Virus record (IMG/VR): IMGVR_UViG_3300021417_000039
Coordinates: 1-26,373 of that record
Direction: 5' to 3' (one strand)
Length of the DNA: 26,373 bases
Origin: a virus
Position 1 is the first letter of the stretch. Every line of letters begins with the position of its first letter. The position numbers and the translations under genes are program-made. Below the pieces are notes generated by a model. It saw only the letters and a list, made by a program, of their open reading frames with translations. It was not told the DNA's origin and searched no databases. Positions 19,187 through 26,373 of the stretch are shown here, piece by piece.

Positions 19187-19765
19187 CTAGTCTTTCTTAA
19201 GCTCGGTGGCGTAGTCCTCGTGGGAAATGCCCAGTTGGTCTGCTACAAGCTTTTGGTCAGCGGTAAGGGCCGCAACGGCGTTTTGGTCTTCACCGTCTGG
19301 TTTCTTTTCTTTGGTTTGTTTACCACCAAAGGCTTCCACGCTTGCGCGGCCATCAAGCTGTGCTTTAAGCGCTGCCATGCTACTTTTACCCAGGCTGCGT
19401 AAGTAAGGCAGCTCCGCTTGCGCCACGAACTTGCCGTCTTTTTGGGCCTGCTCAATGAGCTGGTCGACAGTTACCGCACTGTGGTTTGCCGATAACGCTG
19501 CTAGCTCTGCTACCACGCCGTTATAGGTTTCGATAGGCACATACTCGGCTGGGTTAATGCCTTCTTTGGCTTGCTCTACTTTTGCCGTAAGTGCGGCAAT
19601 TTGTTCGTCGCTTTGTGCTGCGCCGTCTAACTTGGACTTAATTTCGTCAAGCTTGGCTTTCACGCCTGGTTTAGTTAACTGTGCATGTAATGCAGCAGCA
19701 TCAATGTCGGTAGATGGGGTAGTAATACCCAGCAGATTAAATAGCAGGGCTAATGCTTCGTTCAT
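19187..19765 (-). CDS. Nested in-frame scaffold protein (Mu gpZ-like) inside the protease gene
   Basis: An in-frame ATG at residue 212 of the protease gene (position 19765) is preceded by GGAG with nine bases of spacing. The 192-residue product would begin MNEALALLFNLLGITTPSTD. It contains only the coiled, Ala/Lys-rich scaffold region and an acidic C-terminus (AALTADQKLVADQLGISHEDYATELKKD region). In Mu, the scaffold gpZ is made from an internal start in gene I, and the same is inferred here. Confidence 0.65.
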   Translation of the reverse strand: MNEALALLFNLLGITTPSTDIDAAALHAQLTKPGVKAKLDEIKSKLDGAAQSDEQIAALTAKVEQAKEGINPAEYVPIETYNGVVAELAALSANHSAVTVDQLIEQAQKDGKFVAQAELPYLRSLGKSSMAALKAQLDGRASVEAFGGKQTKEKKPDGEDQNAVAALTADQKLVADQLGISHEDYATELKKD

Positions 19766-20398
19766 GGGCGTAGGCTCCGATGGTTGGTTATTAACGTTTG
19801 CATGAAGGGCGGCAGCTTGACTCATGCCCTTTACTGCTGGGTCATTCGTGAGAGCGGCGCTGTGAAGGTCTAACACTTCACCTGTGTGTTTGTTGTAAAT
19901 GACGACGGGGGAGTAGTATTTGTACTCACCGTCTTTGATGTGCTTTCGCGCGGTTGGCGTGAAATTAAGCTGAGCGAATAAGCCTTTGTCTTCTCGCCAT
20001 TCGAATTTATTACCCCATGCACTGGCAGGGGCTTTAGAGCCGTTCTCTTTGGCAAGAAGGGTTTGGTGGTCGTAGTCGACAAGCAGCTGCTCGCCCGCAT
20101 CAGCTCGCGCATTTAATTTCGCGGCGAGGGCTTCGCCTTTGGCATTATCGATGCGCCACTTATTACCAGGCACTTCAGTAGGGCGGCCATCATAGGCAGC
20201 GAAGTCAGCTCCCGGGAGTATTTGTTGCCAGGGCTGTTCTATATCAATTGAAAAAGTACAGGCAGCAACGCCAAGTGGAGACTCAGCGTTGTTCGACTGG
20301 TTCGATAGGGCAGCAAAGGACACGGCTGCTGCTAGCGTTGTCGCTACATGGCGGCCTCCAAGTACTGAAGATGTAAGTGTGGTTAATTGTTTTTTCAT
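19187..20398 (-). CDS. Mu gpI-like prohead protease with C-terminal scaffold
   Basis: This 403-residue protein matches Mu gpI. Residues 53-66 (IEQPWQQILPGADF) start the protease domain, LLVDYDHQTLLAKENG (105-120) carries His111 and LDLHSAALTNDPAV (176-189) carries Ser180. These are the likely catalytic pair by analogy with prohead proteases of the herpesvirus-assemblin type. The C-terminal half is Ala/Glu/Lys-rich and coiled, as in the scaffold. About 40 N-terminal residues precede the conserved region. ATG at 20398 has no Shine-Dalgarno and sits directly after a perfect hairpin, so translation may be controlled or start differently; a GTG at 20320 is another option but also lacks a ribosome-binding site. 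Confidence 0.9.
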   Translation of the reverse strand: MKKQLTTLTSSVLGGRHVATTLAAAVSFAALSNQSNNAESPLGVAACTFSIDIEQPWQQILPGADFAAYDGRPTEVPGNKWRIDNAKGEALAAKLNARADAGEQLLVDYDHQTLLAKENGSKAPASAWGNKFEWREDKGLFAQLNFTPTARKHIKDGEYKYYSPVVIYNKHTGEVLDLHSAALTNDPAVKGMSQAAALHANVNNQPSEPTPMNEALALLFNLLGITTPSTDIDAAALHAQLTKPGVKAKLDEIKSKLDGAAQSDEQIAALTAKVEQAKEGINPAEYVPIETYNGVVAELAALSANHSAVTVDQLIEQAQKDGKFVAQAELPYLRSLGKSSMAALKAQLDGRASVEAFGGKQTKEKKPDGEDQNAVAALTADQKLVADQLGISHEDYATELKKD

Positions 20399-20442: not shown

Positions 20443-20706
20443 CTAGGTTTGGGCTAGTGAGCTGGAAAATCCCTTGCGGATAAGGGCTTCTTCTACATGC
20501 AACACATAGTCGGTTTCAGGGTCTACTATGAAGGTTGCGGTTTTATCGCCCTCGGTAAACGTGAGCTTTAAGTATCGTTTTGGACGCCACCAGTAATAAT
20601 AAATTGCTATGCATACGGTACGGCAAACCTGATACAAAAACGGCAAGGCACAAAGCGCGCTAATTGCCATCATAATGAGCAGCAGTGTTTGGGAGTGTAG
20701 TTCCAT
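20443..20706 (-). CDS. Small membrane protein (87 aa), unknown
   Basis: ATG at 20706 is chosen; upstream in-frame codons (to 20826) look non-coding. The 87-residue product begins MELHSQTLLLIMMAISAL and has one long or two short hydrophobic helices at about residues 8-38 (LLLIMMAISALCALPFLY, then CIAIYYYWW), followed by a soluble basic-to-acidic C-terminal part (KRYLKLTFTEGDK). It lies between the opposite-strand regulator cassette and the protease gene, a place with no counterpart in Mu. The AAGG about eight bases upstream is a weak ribosome-binding site. It may be a moron protein acting at the host membrane; no family is recognised. Confidence 0.55.
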   Translation of the reverse strand: MELHSQTLLLIMMAISALCALPFLYQVCRTVCIAIYYYWWRPKRYLKLTFTEGDKTATFIVDPETDYVLHVEEALIRKGFSSSLAQT

Positions 20707-20737
20707 AAGGTGCCTTTTTCTTGTACTGGATACGACA

Positions 20738-20759
20738 ACGCGATCAGAGTACGCGATCA
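20738..20759. repeat. Direct repeat ACGCGATCA x2, operator-like
   Basis: ACGCGATCA occurs at 20738-20746 and 20751-20759, 13 bp apart and about 50 bp before the start of the minus-strand membrane protein gene. Read on the minus strand it is TGATCGCGT twice. Placement suits a regulator-binding site, but chance is not excluded. Confidence 0.35.
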
Positions 20760-20920
20760 AATGGTGCTTGCCAACTGCCTTATGCTTAGGTACATTTGCA
20801 CCAGATGCTTCAAAACATCTTTTCAAGTAGCGTTACCCGCACACGACAGCCAGCGGTTTTTTTGTGCCCGATTTTTGCCCAGCACCCTTGCAGGCTAAAA
20901 AAGTGGCAACTTGTACCAGC

Positions 20921-21011
20921 GCCGGGAGGGTGATTAATACAATACCCTCGGGAAATAGATCACGCAGCTCTACTTGGCTGTTTTGAACCTCCCGGCACCC
21001 AACTCATATTC
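20921..21011 (+). promoter_or_regulatory. Candidate promoter with flanking inverted repeat for the BRO-N regulator
   Basis: TTGAAC (20983-20988) and CATATT (21005-21010) are spaced 16 bp apart and resemble -35 and -10 boxes (four of six matches each). GCCGGGAGG (20921-20929) and its exact inverse CCTCCCGGC (20988-20996) flank the region; the right arm lies inside the promoter spacer, where a bound repressor would block transcription. The predicted transcript would begin about 17 bases before the regulator's start codon. Confidence 0.4.
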
Positions 21012-21033
21012 AAAGCGACAAGTAGGAGGCCAT

Positions 21034-21861
21034 ATGGCTACCCAATTAACCACCGTGCCGTTTGAGGGCACCAACCTTACCGTAATTGATCACAATGACC
21101 AGCGTTGGCTGACTGCTGAGCAGATAGGCTTAGCGCTTGGCTATGCTGAGCAAAATGCTAGAGATGGTATTGTGCGTTTGTTTAATCGCCACAAAGACGA
21201 ATTTACAGAAGACGACACCTGCACGGTCAAATTGACCGCGCAGGGTCAGGCTCGGGATTTCCGCATTTTCTCCGCCACAGGCTGTCACTTACTGAGCTTT
21301 TTTAGCAACACGCCCCGCGCCAAACAGTTTCGGGCATGGGCTAAAGCGGTGCTGGCCGGGCAAGCCGCAACGCCGGGTTCGATGGAGGGCGTGGAGCAGC
21401 GGCTTGGCAAAGTAGAGCATAACCTTGGCATTATGGCTGAGAACATGGCGGCACTGGTGATGATAAGCCGCCAGCAAGCCGAAAAACTGGATGTGACGGG
21501 GCGCTATATTGGGCTGTTGGAAATTAACCAAAAAGGCAAGGTACGGGTAACGCGCAAAAAAGAAGCTGAAGCACTGGCGCTGCGCGCCCAAGGTATGAGC
21601 ATGCGTGATATTTCGGCGGTGCTGCGCATATCGCCAACAGCAGTAAGCCAAATCATTAACGGTAAATACCCTTGGGCCAACAGCGAAGACGATAAAGGCC
21701 CATTGCCTACGCCTACTATTGAAGAACTGATAGACAGCATGGTAGAGCACGAGCGGGAACGTTTGCCCCGTTTACTGGATGCCCTTAAGCGCACTACTGG
21801 TAGCCAGATAAAAAAGGCGCGAGTAAGGATTGCCAGTGGCGGCACTGTGGAGGGCGAGTAA
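21034..21861 (+). CDS. BRO-N / antirepressor-like regulator with C-terminal helix-turn-helix
   Basis: This 275-residue protein starts at ATG 21034 after a near-perfect AGGAGG six bases upstream; an in-frame TTG at 20974 is unlikely. Residues about 8-112 form a BRO-N domain: DQRWLTAEQIGLALGYAEQN, IVRLFNRHKDEF and FRIFSATGCHLLSFFSNTPRA are typical of BRO/antirepressor proteins. Residues about 115-150 look coiled, and 178-210 (EALALRAQGMSMRDISAVLR...PTAVSQIING) form a helix-turn-helix. BRO-N plus HTH suggests DNA binding and control of lysogeny or of its own operon. It is on the opposite strand to the late genes, with its own promoter candidate and terminator, so it is probably expressed in the lysogen. 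It overlaps the next gene by one base. Confidence 0.85.
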   Translation: MATQLTTVPFEGTNLTVIDHNDQRWLTAEQIGLALGYAEQNARDGIVRLFNRHKDEFTEDDTCTVKLTAQGQARDFRIFSATGCHLLSFFSNTPRAKQFRAWAKAVLAGQAATPGSMEGVEQRLGKVEHNLGIMAENMAALVMISRQQAEKLDVTGRYIGLLEINQKGKVRVTRKKEAEALALRAQGMSMRDISAVLRISPTAVSQIINGKYPWANSEDDKGPLPTPTIEELIDSMVEHERERLPRLLDALKRTTGSQIKKARVRIASGGTVEGE

Positions 21862-22064
21862 TGGCTGCGGTAAAGCTGGCGAGCGAGCGCGTAAATCAAT
21901 ATGTGCAACTACTGGATTGTGTAGCAGAGACCTGCGTAAAACTTGAAGCCTTAGAGTCTTTATTGGCCTATCAGGACAACTTAGAAGGTGTTAATCCGGC
22001 AGGATTAGCGGGTCTAATTGAATTAGTTAGGTTAGACCTTGATAGCTACATAAATAAAAATTAA
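21861..22064 (+). CDS. Small protein (67 aa) coupled to the BRO-N regulator, unknown
   Basis: TAATG overlap at 21859-21863 couples this 67-residue protein to the regulator. It begins MAAVKLASERVNQYVQLLD, is acidic and predicted mostly helical (LESLLAYQDNLEG, GLIELVRLDLDSY), with two cysteines near residues 20-26 (DCVAETCVKLEA). It has no signal peptide or membrane segment. The strong terminator 17 bases further on ends the unit, so regulator and small protein form a two-gene operon. It may modulate or pair with the regulator, but I recognise no family. Confidence 0.65.
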   Translation: MAAVKLASERVNQYVQLLDCVAETCVKLEALESLLAYQDNLEGVNPAGLAGLIELVRLDLDSYINKN

Positions 22065-22338: not shown

Positions 22339-22791
22339 CTAGGTGATAGCATCTAATAGGTGGCCTTGCAGTATTTCCACAATTTCATCCTCATCTCTCC
22401 ATGGCCCTGTCGTTAACCCCAAGAATGGGCGGGCGGGTATGCCATCTTCCTCTCTTCCGAACTGGTGGGTACTGGCATACTCTTGGTTACTTCCGAAGGT
22501 CAGCGTTTTTCCAGTTATTTGATAATTGAGCTGATCGCGCAAAATGCCAGATTGCTGCAATATTCTATCTTCGCCAGCTTTTCGTGCTAGCGTTTCTGGC
22601 GCAAGCGGCTCCCACTGCTCACCATTGGGAGCGAGTTCCAGCTTAAAGCGTTCTTCCGTTGCCCGAATTAGATAATCACCAATCTCCTCGAACGCGGGCT
22701 CTAGGTCAGTACCTGCTCTGGCAATACGGGTAAGCAGTGCATTTATCTCACCACTGCCATAAGCACGAACCGTAATGAAGCTACCAGCCAT
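22339..22791 (-). CDS. Phage virion morphogenesis protein, Mu gpG-like
   Basis: This 150-residue protein is of the phage virion morphogenesis (Mu gpG / P2 gpS) family. Signatures are RATEERFKLELAPNGEQWEP, then LRDQLNYQITG, NQEYASTHQFG and IPARPFLGLT near the end. ATG at 22791 is chosen because the purine-rich AAAAGGG element is six bases upstream; the ATG at 22797 directly abuts it. Such proteins help head completion or head-tail joining. It lies downstream of a small membrane protein gene whose 3' end overlaps this start by 11 bp, and ends in front of the reversed cassette. Confidence 0.9.
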   Translation of the reverse strand: MAGSFITVRAYGSGEINALLTRIARAGTDLEPAFEEIGDYLIRATEERFKLELAPNGEQWEPLAPETLARKAGEDRILQQSGILRDQLNYQITGKTLTFGSNQEYASTHQFGREEDGIPARPFLGLTTGPWRDEDEIVEILQGHLLDAIT

Positions 22792-22960
22792 TACCATCCC
22801 TTTTTTTTATAACGTCGATTTTACTTTCAATTTCACAGCCCACAGAGAAAATCGTCATGCAGATGAGAAAACCCCATATAGATATTACTTCTACCTTCAT
22901 CAGAAAAGCGCTCAGTATCGCTATAAAGAGGATCCAACTAAGAATACTAGCTTTAACCAT
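22781..22960 (-). CDS. Small two-helix membrane protein (59 aa)
   Basis: I found this frame by reading the gap between the 65-aa gene and gpG. ATG at 22960 comes two bases after the upstream stop, and a TAG at 22781-22783 closes 59 codons. The product begins MVKASILSWILFIAILSAFL and has a second hydrophobic stretch VISIWGFLICMTIFSVG, followed by a charged tail (EIESKIDVIKKRDGNGW). It fits two transmembrane helices. The frame overlaps gpG by 11 bp. The ribosome-binding site is weak (AGG 11 bases upstream), but tight packing and amino-acid composition favour a real gene. Function is unknown; a small holin-like or exclusion protein is conceivable. Confidence 0.55.
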   Translation of the reverse strand: MVKASILSWILFIAILSAFLMKVEVISIWGFLICMTIFSVGCEIESKIDVIKKRDGNGW

Positions 22961-22962
22961 AA

Positions 22963-23160
22963 TTAGTCAGCCTGCAGCACTAGGTTAGAAAGAAGATCAC
23001 CAAACATGGCTTTTTCATGTTCAGGGGCTTTTTTCATTAGCGCTTCAATACGCGCTTGCTTTTCTGCAGTTGGTACCGACGATTGAAGCACTTGCTGTGC
23101 GTCACGCAGCTGCTCGCTTTCTTCTTTATGGCCAGCGTTAATTTTATCGAAAATACTCAT
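22963..23160 (-). CDS. Small head-module protein (65 aa), unknown
   Basis: The ATG at 23160 overlaps the gpF stop by one base (TAATG). The 65-residue product begins MSIFDKINAGHKEESEQLRD and is largely helical and highly charged, likely a coiled coil. It is cytoplasmic by composition. Small genes between F and G are common in Mu-like phages, but no family is recognised and no function is assigned. Confidence 0.75.
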   Translation of the reverse strand: MSIFDKINAGHKEESEQLRDAQQVLQSSVPTAEKQARIEALMKKAPEHEKAMFGDLLSNLVLQAD

Positions 23161-24578
23161 TACAGTAGTTCCCCCATTAGTTCGTCGAAGTATGCGACTA
23201 TCGCTGGATAGTGCGTTTCAAGCATGGCGCGATTAAGCGCCCATGCGGCAAAGTGCTCGGCATGCCATTCCATGGTGTCTTGCATACTGTAAGTGGTAAT
23301 ACTCTCATTTAAGCCCGGTGTAGGAATTTCCATGCGCATGGCCTGAAATTGAACTTGGTGTCCCATTTCATGAAGCCATGTGATTATTGCGCCACCATGA
23401 TCACCACTGTCTGTATAGTGCCTTACAATATGCGACAGCGACCATTGCCGCTTGCCAGCCTGTAAAGCGAGTATTGCCGCCTCTACCGCATTGGTTAAGT
23501 CGGTAATGTCGGCAATTTTATTTAAGTTTACACCTGTTTTGGCTTTTACGACGACGTGTTTCCAAGCAAGTGCTGTGTAACCATTTGCACGTCGTGCGGT
23601 GTTACTGGGTACAGGCCAATGGCCATTGGCTTTTGATATTGGGACATTTAAATAACTGGTAATGTCCTCTTCCAACTCTTTGGCTTTCTTGCTTCCACGC
23701 ACCATTTCGGTAGGTTTCAGAAACAAGGTTTTCATACCGTAGGTAGTAATGAAATCGGTCACTTGGCGCATTTGTGGTTGCGCCTGGCTCAATTCTGAAA
23801 TGACCTTGTTTAACCCATGAATGGTTACATTTTTATTCGTTGAGTAAGCACTAGGTACCACACGTTCAGGAAGGCGCTCTTTTAGTGGTGGCTTTGAAAG
23901 TTGCTGCTGGCGCAATACATCGGCTTGCGATTTTGAGCCCGGCGAATAATCGAAACCAGGGTCGATACCTACAGGCACTTGGTGCGCTTCACCTGTTTTC
24001 TTATCTACCCATTCGCGCGTTTCAATAACAGGCTCTTTGCTTAACGTCATGTTCTTGCGCTTAATACTGCGCTCTGTCTCACCAAACACTTTGCATTTAC
24101 AGCCCCAACCGTTTTGGGGAAACCAGGTAAGCCAGAACGGCGACTCTTTAGGTAAAATGGTACCGTCTTTACTTTGGTGATGTGGGCGAGGGTAGCGACT
24201 ATCGCCGTGCGCATAGCGCCAGTAAGGAAAATTCTGCAGCTGCTGGAAGCGACCCGCGTTATAGGCTTGGCGCATGTTCGTGTCATAAATGATATTAGCT
24301 CGCCATGCGGCACTGCCTGTGTGTTCCCATCCATGCTTTTTAACCAGGTGTTTAAACTCTTTTTGAAACCAGCTTAAACTTTTGCCCTCGGCTATTGCGC
24401 TGTCTACCATTTGGCGAATGTCGGCCAACAAATCCGTCTTCGTTGCACCAGCCACCATAAAGGCGTTATTGTGCTGTTCGCGCCACACATCAGCCCAGCG
24501 TTCGCTGGGCATGTTTAACTTGTTTCTAAAGTGGGTAATGGCTTCAGAAAACTTCTGAGGGCCGTACTGGGCAGGCAT
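23160..24578 (-). CDS. Mu gpF-like minor head protein with HEMGH peptidase-like C-terminus
   Basis: ATG at 24578 is preferred, with AGGG about ten bases upstream. The protein has 472 residues. The MuF domain (PF04233 type) covers about residues 35-168: ANIIYDTNMRQAYNAGRF, then YAHGDSRYPRPHHQ and the cysteine pair NGWGCKC. The rest is unusual: near residues 399-409 is ITWLHEMGHQV, an exact HExxH zinc-binding motif (His403-His407), with EWHAEHFAAWAL 30 residues later offering a third ligand (Glu437 or Glu441). MuF proteins with C-terminal toxin domains form a known class of phage polymorphic toxins. Here the C-terminus may be a virion-borne metallopeptidase, though a catalytic role is unproven. 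Confidence 0.9.
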   Translation of the reverse strand: MPAQYGPQKFSEAITHFRNKLNMPSERWADVWREQHNNAFMVAGATKTDLLADIRQMVDSAIAEGKSLSWFQKEFKHLVKKHGWEHTGSAAWRANIIYDTNMRQAYNAGRFQQLQNFPYWRYAHGDSRYPRPHHQSKDGTILPKESPFWLTWFPQNGWGCKCKVFGETERSIKRKNMTLSKEPVIETREWVDKKTGEAHQVPVGIDPGFDYSPGSKSQADVLRQQQLSKPPLKERLPERVVPSAYSTNKNVTIHGLNKVISELSQAQPQMRQVTDFITTYGMKTLFLKPTEMVRGSKKAKELEEDITSYLNVPISKANGHWPVPSNTARRANGYTALAWKHVVVKAKTGVNLNKIADITDLTNAVEAAILALQAGKRQWSLSHIVRHYTDSGDHGGAIITWLHEMGHQVQFQAMRMEIPTPGLNESITTYSMQDTMEWHAEHFAAWALNRAMLETHYPAIVAYFDELMGELL

Positions 24579-24580
24579 CC

Positions 24581-26206
24581 TCAATTACCCTCATTCACAT
24601 CAAATCGTCCGCTTAACTCAGCTGCGGTAAATGCTTGGCCCAAAAGTAGTTGATAATCTTCAATGGGCAGTTGGTCTTCTAATTCCAGCAGCTGCTCTAA
24701 TAGCGCCTCCAATGAATCAGCATTCGCTACGAGTGATTCAATGGGTTGCATTAACTGACTGAACGACTCGCCAGCCTGTTGTGCTAAGCGCTTGGTGAGT
24801 ACATCTGCACCGTCGTCTTTCGGTTGTTGTGCTTTAAGTGCAGCGAGCGCTAAACGCAATGCAGCGGTTTGCGGCTCTTGTTTTGGGTCGTCCTTATCCG
24901 CATCTTTTTCCTCTGGCTCGTTAACAGCAGGCGTGGCGGCAGCGCGAGCCAAGATAGCCTCTTCGCCTTCAGGCTCCGGAATGCGCAGCTTATCTTGCGC
25001 CCAGCTGGCCGGAATACGAAAACCAATGTCGACCAGCTTGGGTAAGCTATCAGCGTATTGGCTGATGTCTTCGGGCTCTTGTGTGTCAAATATAATACGC
25101 GGCTTACGTCTTGGGTCGCCTCGGTAGCTTAGGCTGTTAAGCGCGTGCATCGGTAAAACAAGGTCGCGATTTAAGGTATTGGCCATTTGGCGCAAATCGT
25201 GGTCGCGAATGTCTTGTCGTACTTCATTGTGCACGTTGCCTAACGCTTGGCTGCCCGTGCTGTCTACCTGGGATGTGAGGGTTTGACCTAAAATGACTTT
25301 AGATTGGATGCGCTCACACCAGCTCATCATTGTCATGAAGGGGTCGCTGCCGCCGCCTTTCGCTGCTTCGTGAAATTCAATTTCCATGCCTTTGGGGATT
25401 ATGCCCCCAGCATTGTGGCCAATGCCGAGTACTGCCTGAAGCAAGCGGCTCTTTTCGGTATCAGTTGCACCACTAGGGTATTTACCCAATTTAATAGGAA
25501 TGCCGTAAATCTCTAGGAACTCGGCTAAGTCGCGCACCGAATAGTTTTTGAATATGAACGGCCACGCCAGCTGACGAATTAGGCCAATGCGTGCGGCATA
25601 ACCGCTTTTTGCAGGGTGGCGGTGCTGCAGCCAGTTAAGCGGGCGTAGTTTCTCGCCCTTACCCGTTTGGTCGCGAAGGGCAATGCAGTCCTGGTCGTCG
25701 TGGTGTAACTGAAACCACGTAGCAGGGCGGTGCACGAATGCCTCAGGAATACGGAAGTTATTGTAAAAGCCCCATTCATACTCAATGTTTGAAAAGCCTT
25801 TTAAAATGCCGTCACCCATACCAAATATGATGTTGTGCCAGTCTTCCACATCTTTCAGCATTTGCTCTATGTTGGCCGCATCTTTTTGTTCCTGGGCGGT
25901 GGCATTCACAGGCGGCTCTATCTGCCAATCGATATCGGTTAGTGCCATCTTACGCTTGAATATTTCAGCCTGGATGTGACCGTCTTTCTCTTCGATGTCT
26001 TCAGCAAGGTAGCACTGTTCTAATAAGCTACCTTTTTCAGCATTTTTAAGAATGACCGCCAACGTGGCAGGCGTTAGCCCAGAACTAGGATGCTCAGCAA
26101 ACTCACGCCGCATTTGCGCCACACGTGCTGAATTGTCGGTTTGTTTGGTTTTAAGGCCGCGTTCACGTACACGAAAGCGCGTACCGTTTTGCTCGTAGGT
26201 TTCCAT
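24581..26206 (-). CDS. Portal protein, Mu gp29 / DUF935 type
   Basis: This 541-residue protein starts at ATG 26206, overlapping the terminase stop (TGATG); a GTG nine bases earlier is possible. Signature regions are LYLAEDIEEKDGHI-like (QCYLAEDIEEKDGHIQAEIF), ALTDIDWQIEPP, the segment GFSNIEYEWGF and YSVRDLAEFLEIYGIPIKLG, all typical of the DUF935 family to which Mu gp29 belongs. It forms the dodecameric channel for DNA packaging. The C-terminal 130 residues are acidic and Ala/Gln-rich (EPEEKDADKDDPKQEP) and likely disordered or helical. The TTG/ATG of gpF follows immediately. Confidence 0.95.
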   Translation of the reverse strand: METYEQNGTRFRVRERGLKTKQTDNSARVAQMRREFAEHPSSGLTPATLAVILKNAEKGSLLEQCYLAEDIEEKDGHIQAEIFKRKMALTDIDWQIEPPVNATAQEQKDAANIEQMLKDVEDWHNIIFGMGDGILKGFSNIEYEWGFYNNFRIPEAFVHRPATWFQLHHDDQDCIALRDQTGKGEKLRPLNWLQHRHPAKSGYAARIGLIRQLAWPFIFKNYSVRDLAEFLEIYGIPIKLGKYPSGATDTEKSRLLQAVLGIGHNAGGIIPKGMEIEFHEAAKGGGSDPFMTMMSWCERIQSKVILGQTLTSQVDSTGSQALGNVHNEVRQDIRDHDLRQMANTLNRDLVLPMHALNSLSYRGDPRRKPRIIFDTQEPEDISQYADSLPKLVDIGFRIPASWAQDKLRIPEPEGEEAILARAAATPAVNEPEEKDADKDDPKQEPQTAALRLALAALKAQQPKDDGADVLTKRLAQQAGESFSQLMQPIESLVANADSLEALLEQLLELEDQLPIEDYQLLLGQAFTAAELSGRFDVNEGN

Positions 26207-26373
26207 CAATAACACCCACTTTGTTGGATTGAGTAGTTGTCGTCATTGTTGCGGTTGTCGCGCCTTTCGGCTTTGGAAGGTAGGCTCATGTAGTCAATTT
26301 CACCGCCCTCCATTTTACTGGCCGCAACCATCATGCAGCAGGCAATAGCACCGTCGCCATGTCGCTGTTTTTT
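26206..26373 (-). CDS. Terminase large subunit, C-terminal end (partial)
   Basis: The last 55 codons of the gene upstream of the portal reach the window edge with no start. They read KKQRHGDGAIACCMMVAASK, followed by a short polar tail rich in Asp/Asn/Arg, and stop at TGA 26206-26208. The RHGDGAIA motif is the usual C-terminal signature of Mu gp28-like large terminases, whose nuclease domain ends with RHGD. The large subunit packages DNA into the prohead as an ATPase-nuclease. One-base overlap with the portal gene keeps the two coupled. Confidence 0.85.
   Translation of the reverse strand, partial: KKQRHGDGAIACCMMVAASKMEGGEIDYMSLPSKAERRDNRNNDDNYSIQQSGCY

Follow-up and report, generated by a model that had tools for sequence, protein, structure and literature searches.

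A predicted zincin on the MuF head protein of a Mu-like phage and a linked small helical protein as a candidate virion-borne effector and its inhibitor

The virus record IMGVR_UViG_3300021417_000039, analysed over its whole length of 26,373 bases (hereafter the window), is a 26-kb fragment whose gene content is limited to late genes, here those of a Mu-like phage on the minus strand. The gene for the portal protein (PF06074) is followed by those for the MuF minor head protein, a 65-amino-acid (aa) open reading frame (ORF), a gpG-like protein (PF05069) and then the gpI protease (PF10123), beyond which lie genes for the gpT major head protein (PF10124), a FluMu_N protein (PF17891) and the tape measure protein. 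This report concerns the MuF protein, the C-terminal part of which is predicted to be a zinc peptidase of the zincin type, and the 65-aa product encoded next to it. The 472-aa MuF protein is encoded at 23163..24578 on the minus strand, from the ATG at 24578 to the stop codon at 23160-23162, and this gene is the interval in which the initial annotation had placed a zinc-peptidase-like domain. An alternative TTG start lies at 24584; the frame in the ORF list has 474 aa, and a phrog_220 match spans residues 3-456 of it. In ATG numbering, the Phage_Mu_F domain (PF04233, E = 3.6e-15) covers residues 53-164 (24087..24422, minus strand), the conserved N-terminal part (1-226) ends at about residue 226, and the zincin domain, placed by predicted fold and structure alignment, occupies residues 238-472 (23163..23867, minus strand). 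The 65-aa ORF (22963..23160, minus strand) encodes a predicted helical partner of the phrog_18304 family, a candidate inhibitor or immunity protein, and its start ATG and the MuF stop codon overlap by a single base (TAATG). The initial annotation did not mention this gene.

The initial annotation had counted some 300 extra residues behind the MuF domain and read them as zincin-like. The extra C-terminal part is there, and the domain proper is shorter, about 235 residues, preceded by a linker at about residues 212-240 that was predicted with low confidence (predicted local distance difference test, pLDDT, 47-67) by AlphaFold2 using 47 dereplicated homologues. From residue 241 to the C terminus the pLDDT was 94-98, with 88 in one block. 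Lethal factor structures were the top Foldseek matches of the predicted domain, and VIA-align superimposed residues 238-472 on the lethal factor metalloproteinase (domain IV) with a Z score of 11.9 and a root-mean-square deviation of 3.2 Å over 163 residues, and on the Pro-Pro endopeptidases (PPEPs) with Z scores of 9.3-9.5 (9.5 for PPEP-1). A phmmer search of the window protein against PDB gave no match and a profile was required: profile A2, built from 13 C-termini, reached lethal factor among the PDB sequences with E = 0.0015, in an alignment that superimposed the HExGH, TxY and ExxAE motifs. By this alignment, E437, Y430 and E441 are equivalent to Glu735, Tyr728 and Glu739 of lethal factor, of which Glu735 is the third zinc ligand. 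The Pfam family ATLF matched seven of the 13 profile members weakly; its cut-off is 27.4 bits, the best relative (L185) reached 26.8 bits and the window domain had no match; the domain, which shares the predicted fold and the site, is therefore not classed as an ATLF member. Searches of Pfam, NCBIfam and PADLOC left the window C-terminal domain unrecognised, with Pfam seeing the MuF domain only. A zincin-like nature is thus supported by the predicted fold, by the invariant catalytic residues and, at the sequence level, by a weak similarity to lethal factor.

The exact HExxH and the downstream EWHAEHF that had been reported are both present. HEMGH comprises residues 403-407 (23358..23372, minus strand), with H403 and H407 as predicted zinc ligands and E404 as the predicted general base, and EWHAEHF comprises residues 437-443 (23250..23270, minus strand), with E437 as the predicted third zinc ligand. 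Between them lies Y430 (23289..23291, minus strand), which the profile aligned with the lethal factor tyrosine. H403, E404, H407, Y430, E437 and E441 were invariant in 47 of 47 dereplicated homologues, in which the complete set of invariant C-terminal residues is S246, G333, T335, W401, H403, E404, G406, H407, Q408, Y430, E437, A440 and E441; the suggested check of HExxH, Glu437 and Glu441 conservation thus came out in favour of the domain. HExxH alone arose in 4.7% of shuffles of the MuF protein and HExGH followed by ExxAE in 0.004%, and a chance origin of the motif is untenable because the residues are conserved across homologues. From sequence and model together, the domain is very probably an active zincin. 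A catalytically dead zincin that serves as a binding module is highly improbable, given that none of the key positions (the two histidines, the catalytic Glu, the Tyr and the Glu of the third ligand) varies and that HExxH persists in all the zincins compared.

The conservation of HExxH in our C-terminal profile scans is partly built in, because these scans used patterns that contained HExxH. This bias was avoided by two scans, one with patterns lacking HExxH and one with N-terminal patterns only. Recruitment by the N-terminal patterns alone yielded 61 complete zincin-type relatives, all of which retained HExxH, and no loss of HExxH was seen in the zincins of the other MuF lineages examined; homologues without the motif, which the initial annotation had named as evidence against a zincin, were therefore not found. 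Among 395 genomes of the Alteromonas order there were 13 strong zincin-profile matches (about 3% of species), each with HExxH. In six cyanophage loci an apparent absence of the motif was rejected, as only ExxAE carried T for A and HEMGH was intact. A close relative (L021 3001-4411, 95% identical) has a frameshift that splits the MuF-zincin ORF into 124 aa and then a 402-aa frame, the result of a sequencing error or else of damage to this copy. Stand-alone proteins of 177-211 aa (L187, L189, L190) with HExGHHVYFK and ExFAE matched the zincin profile weakly; the partner gene is absent there, and they were set aside from the zincin set.

As had been anticipated, the C terminus varies among related phages. 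N-terminus-only recruitment also returned five other loci, one without the C terminus (L315) and four with a PBECR2-type nuclease (L319, L321, L324, L348), the N-termini of which are 58-62% identical to that of the window. More distant relatives carry PBECR2 (L045, L053) or a DRAT-type ADP-ribosyltransferase (L050); the latter, at L050 2984-5158, is a 725-aa MuF protein with a similar N terminus and a C-terminal DRAT-like domain (E = 1.4e-9). In a tree of the N-termini all 46 zincin rows fell in a single clade, the other C-termini were intermixed, and two changes were needed for the zincin label. In relatives without the zincin, gpG follows right behind MuF or with about 96-162 bases in between.

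The small ORF follows the same division. Among the loci recruited by the N terminus alone, the partner was found in 61 of 61 zincin-type loci versus none of the five others, and no comparable downstream ORF was seen in the PBECR2-type relatives. In two loci where the partner seemed absent, it lay slightly further downstream. A hidden Markov model (HMM) of 45 partner members matched 129 of 133 zincin loci, the four misses all being on truncated contigs, and had no significant match in any complete non-zincin locus. The partner ORFs are 57-96 aa long and lie directly 3' of MuF, mostly with an overlap of four bases and in the window of one. PHROG assigned 27 of the 45 partners to phrog_18304, a family of unknown function. 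Structure prediction made the partner a small bundle of helices (pLDDT 83), and a structural search with this model gave no informative match, the best Z score of 6.6 being common for small helical proteins. Among 38 lineage-A phages, the distances between partners correlated with those between zincins after the contributions of the N terminus and gpG were removed (partial r = 0.33; 0 of 500 permutations), and there was no correlation with gpG distances (-0.10). The position of the small ORF between two morphogenesis genes could suggest a structural head or neck gene that has nothing to do with the protease; we regard this as very unlikely, since the ORF is present in every complete zincin relative and in no complete one without a zincin, stands behind zincin-type MuF proteins in other phage lineages too, and diverges with the zincin and not with gpG. 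On these sequence comparisons we hold with good confidence that the 65-aa protein is a cognate functional partner of the zincin.

MuF proteins without detectable N-terminal similarity to the window MuF also end in such a zincin, and an ORF of 57-67 aa then follows directly downstream. These lineages are B (L193-L200), B2 (L201-L211) and C (the cyanophages MED4-184 and P-HS2, and L215-L276). The partner HMM scored 24-27 bits in lineage B versus 9.3 bits for shuffles, and 22.4 bits at best in lineage C versus a shuffle maximum of 8.0. Homology of the lineage B2 partner is not claimed: position and size match, and the HMM score was not above that of shuffles. In L200 of lineage B, the ORF directly after the MuF-zincin gene has 118 aa with a PLPDDAEEQL motif in its second half, and looks like a fusion or duplication of the partner.

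Taken as a whole, we consider it rather likely that the MuF protein is a virion-carried protease effector and the small protein its cognate inhibitor. The C-terminal 235 residues would be a zinc endopeptidase of the lethal-factor/PPEP fold, which the MuF head protein would carry into the virion and which would enter the infected cell together with the DNA and cut a bacterial protein there, while the co-translated 65-aa helical partner would keep it inactive in the virion-producing cell. From precedent we infer that the enzyme is packaged along with MuF and ejected, that it then cleaves a host protein and that the partner inhibits it; the same holds for delivery to the host and toxicity, which the initial annotation had raised. 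The carriage and entry steps are suggested by MuF biology, as SPP1 gp7 is a head protein bound to the portal, of which there are one or two copies (PMC5576092). Inhibition is suggested by linkage, by co-divergence and by the MuF Apk2 toxins, the immunity proteins of which act via protein-protein contact (PMC12226406). Nothing in the analysis points to action on eukaryotic cells.

Four observations weigh against the effector-inhibitor reading or parts of it. The zincin is stable in this MuF lineage, which is less polymorphic than classical toxin sets. Among relatives, the partner is acidic and the zincin basic (median isoelectric points of 4.4 and 9.4), which favours the reading, but the window pair lacks a strong charge contrast (zincin 6.9, partner 5.3). 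The partner lies in a late operon without a promoter-like site of its own, and therefore it may not protect a lysogen. The cassette is also present in cyanosiphovirus P-HS2/MED4-184, which has been studied as a lytic phage (PMC7852597), and a weapon of lysogen against lysogen fits poorly with such a carrier.

The last two observations bear on a narrower form of the reading, in which the delivered enzyme is a host-takeover protease that, early in infection, eliminates a host protein with a role in defence or regulation, and the partner does no more than silence it during virion production, with no lysogen competition. The late-operon position of the partner, the overlap of its start with the MuF stop and the cassette in a phage studied as lytic (PMC7852597) all favour this form, as does a scan between the two genes that found no promoter-like site, which is weak evidence. 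On the other hand, the Mu-like carriers occur as prophages in many gammaproteobacteria, where the partner could also confer lysogen immunity. We treat this form as possible and less probable than the broader reading. We prefer an inhibitor acting at production time to lysogen immunity, with odds that are even or marginally in its favour, because no promoter of the partner is visible and some phages with the cassette are regarded as lytic (PMC7852597). Going further, one may tentatively view the pair as a mobile two-gene cassette fitted to several unrelated head proteins, some of them from ocean cyanophages that are apparently lytic; the inhibitor would then serve as a safety catch at production time and not as lysogen immunity, and the protease would be a general host-takeover enzyme borne by the virion.

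Alternatively, the zincin could be an assembly protease that trims MuF, the portal or another head protein at maturation, with the partner as a chaperone or as a factor that times this step. In favour of this, MuF belongs to the head, the domain has been kept over a long divergence within one clade, and polyvalent-protein zincins may self-process before packaging (PMC5512222). The phage, however, already has its own head maturation protease gpI (19187..20398, minus strand; PF10123, E = 2e-85), and in relatives the same portal-MuF-gpG order occurs without the domain, or with a nuclease or an ADP-ribosyltransferase in its place. This function is accordingly unlikely. Action on the capsid, which the initial annotation had offered beside delivery to the host, is for the same reasons the weaker alternative.

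The arrangement is consistent with the MuF polymorphic toxins, the class to which the protein had been assigned (Jamet 2017, PMC5576092; Apk2, PMC12226406), which likewise combine a MuF N terminus with an exchangeable C-terminal enzyme and have a small downstream ORF only when the C-terminal domain is present. Here, the MuF domain lies in the packaging module between the Mu portal and gpG, the C terminus is exchanged on a conserved N terminus (short, PBECR2 and DRAT versions), and a downstream ORF of less than 150 aa is found when and only when the zincin is present. As to temperate carriage, relatives of the window occur in bacterial genomes and the cyanophage relatives are regarded as lytic (PMC7852597). 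Metallopeptidase-bearing MuF toxins are already described: 20% of MuF toxins were found to have metallopeptidase domains, and a Ct_MAD extension that is left without explanation was reported in Proteobacteria (Jamet 2017, PMC5576092). Whereas the described MuF toxins are over-represented in Firmicutes, the present ones belong to Mu-like phages of marine gammaproteobacteria and differ in the lethal-factor-like zincin, the specific partner family phrog_18304 and a cassette common to cyanophages. What is new is that a fold is assigned to this clade, that a specific partner family goes with it and that the cassette is shared. Lethal factor has the fold predicted here, and its HExxH, Tyr and ExxxE helix follow one another as they do in the window zincin; in contrast to it, the window zincin is only 12-14% identical, lacks targeting domains, is carried by a phage head protein and comes with no evidence of a eukaryotic target. 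PPEP-1/2/3 are minimal zincins of the same fold that were solved as stand-alone proteases, whereas the window zincin is fused to MuF. The zincin metallopeptidases of phage polyvalent proteins also sit on virion proteins thought to be injected, and no inhibitor gene is described for them in the part of the source used here (Iyer 2017, PMC5512222). Phage Mu gpF has the orthologous position and a MuF domain, and its C terminus is described as an inactive PBECR (PMC5512222). MuF delivery and lethal-factor-like toxin domains are both listed by Zhang 2012 (PMC3482391), unpaired in its table, and a partial literature search found no paper on the zincin-partner pair. Little is known about the proteins that phages inject along with their DNA, or about the means by which the cell that makes these proteins survives. 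The compact pair of a 235-aa protease and a 65-aa partner, found repeatedly in phages of marine gammaproteobacteria and in cyanophages, is testable; it offers a candidate function for phrog_18304 and for C-termini unannotated in Pfam and NCBIfam, and it leads one to expect an inhibitor for a protease fold that occurs in potent toxins of bacteria.

The remaining neighbours are the Mu-type portal gene upstream of MuF (24581..26215, minus strand; PF06074, E = 4e-101) and the gene for the gpG-like virion morphogenesis protein (22339..22797, minus strand; PF05069). Between gpG and gpI, the window at 20443-22064 contains a BRO-N/HTH regulator (20974-21861, plus strand), a 67-aa ORF and a 127-aa ORF. 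In relatives, other genes occupy this interval, among them those for a Septu PtuA-like ATPase (L102 4664-6019, E = 3e-117), for KAP-type NTPases close to PDC-S20/QatA (L036, L108, L149) and for an AbiZ-like protein (L120), and it may be a slot for defence genes within the late region.
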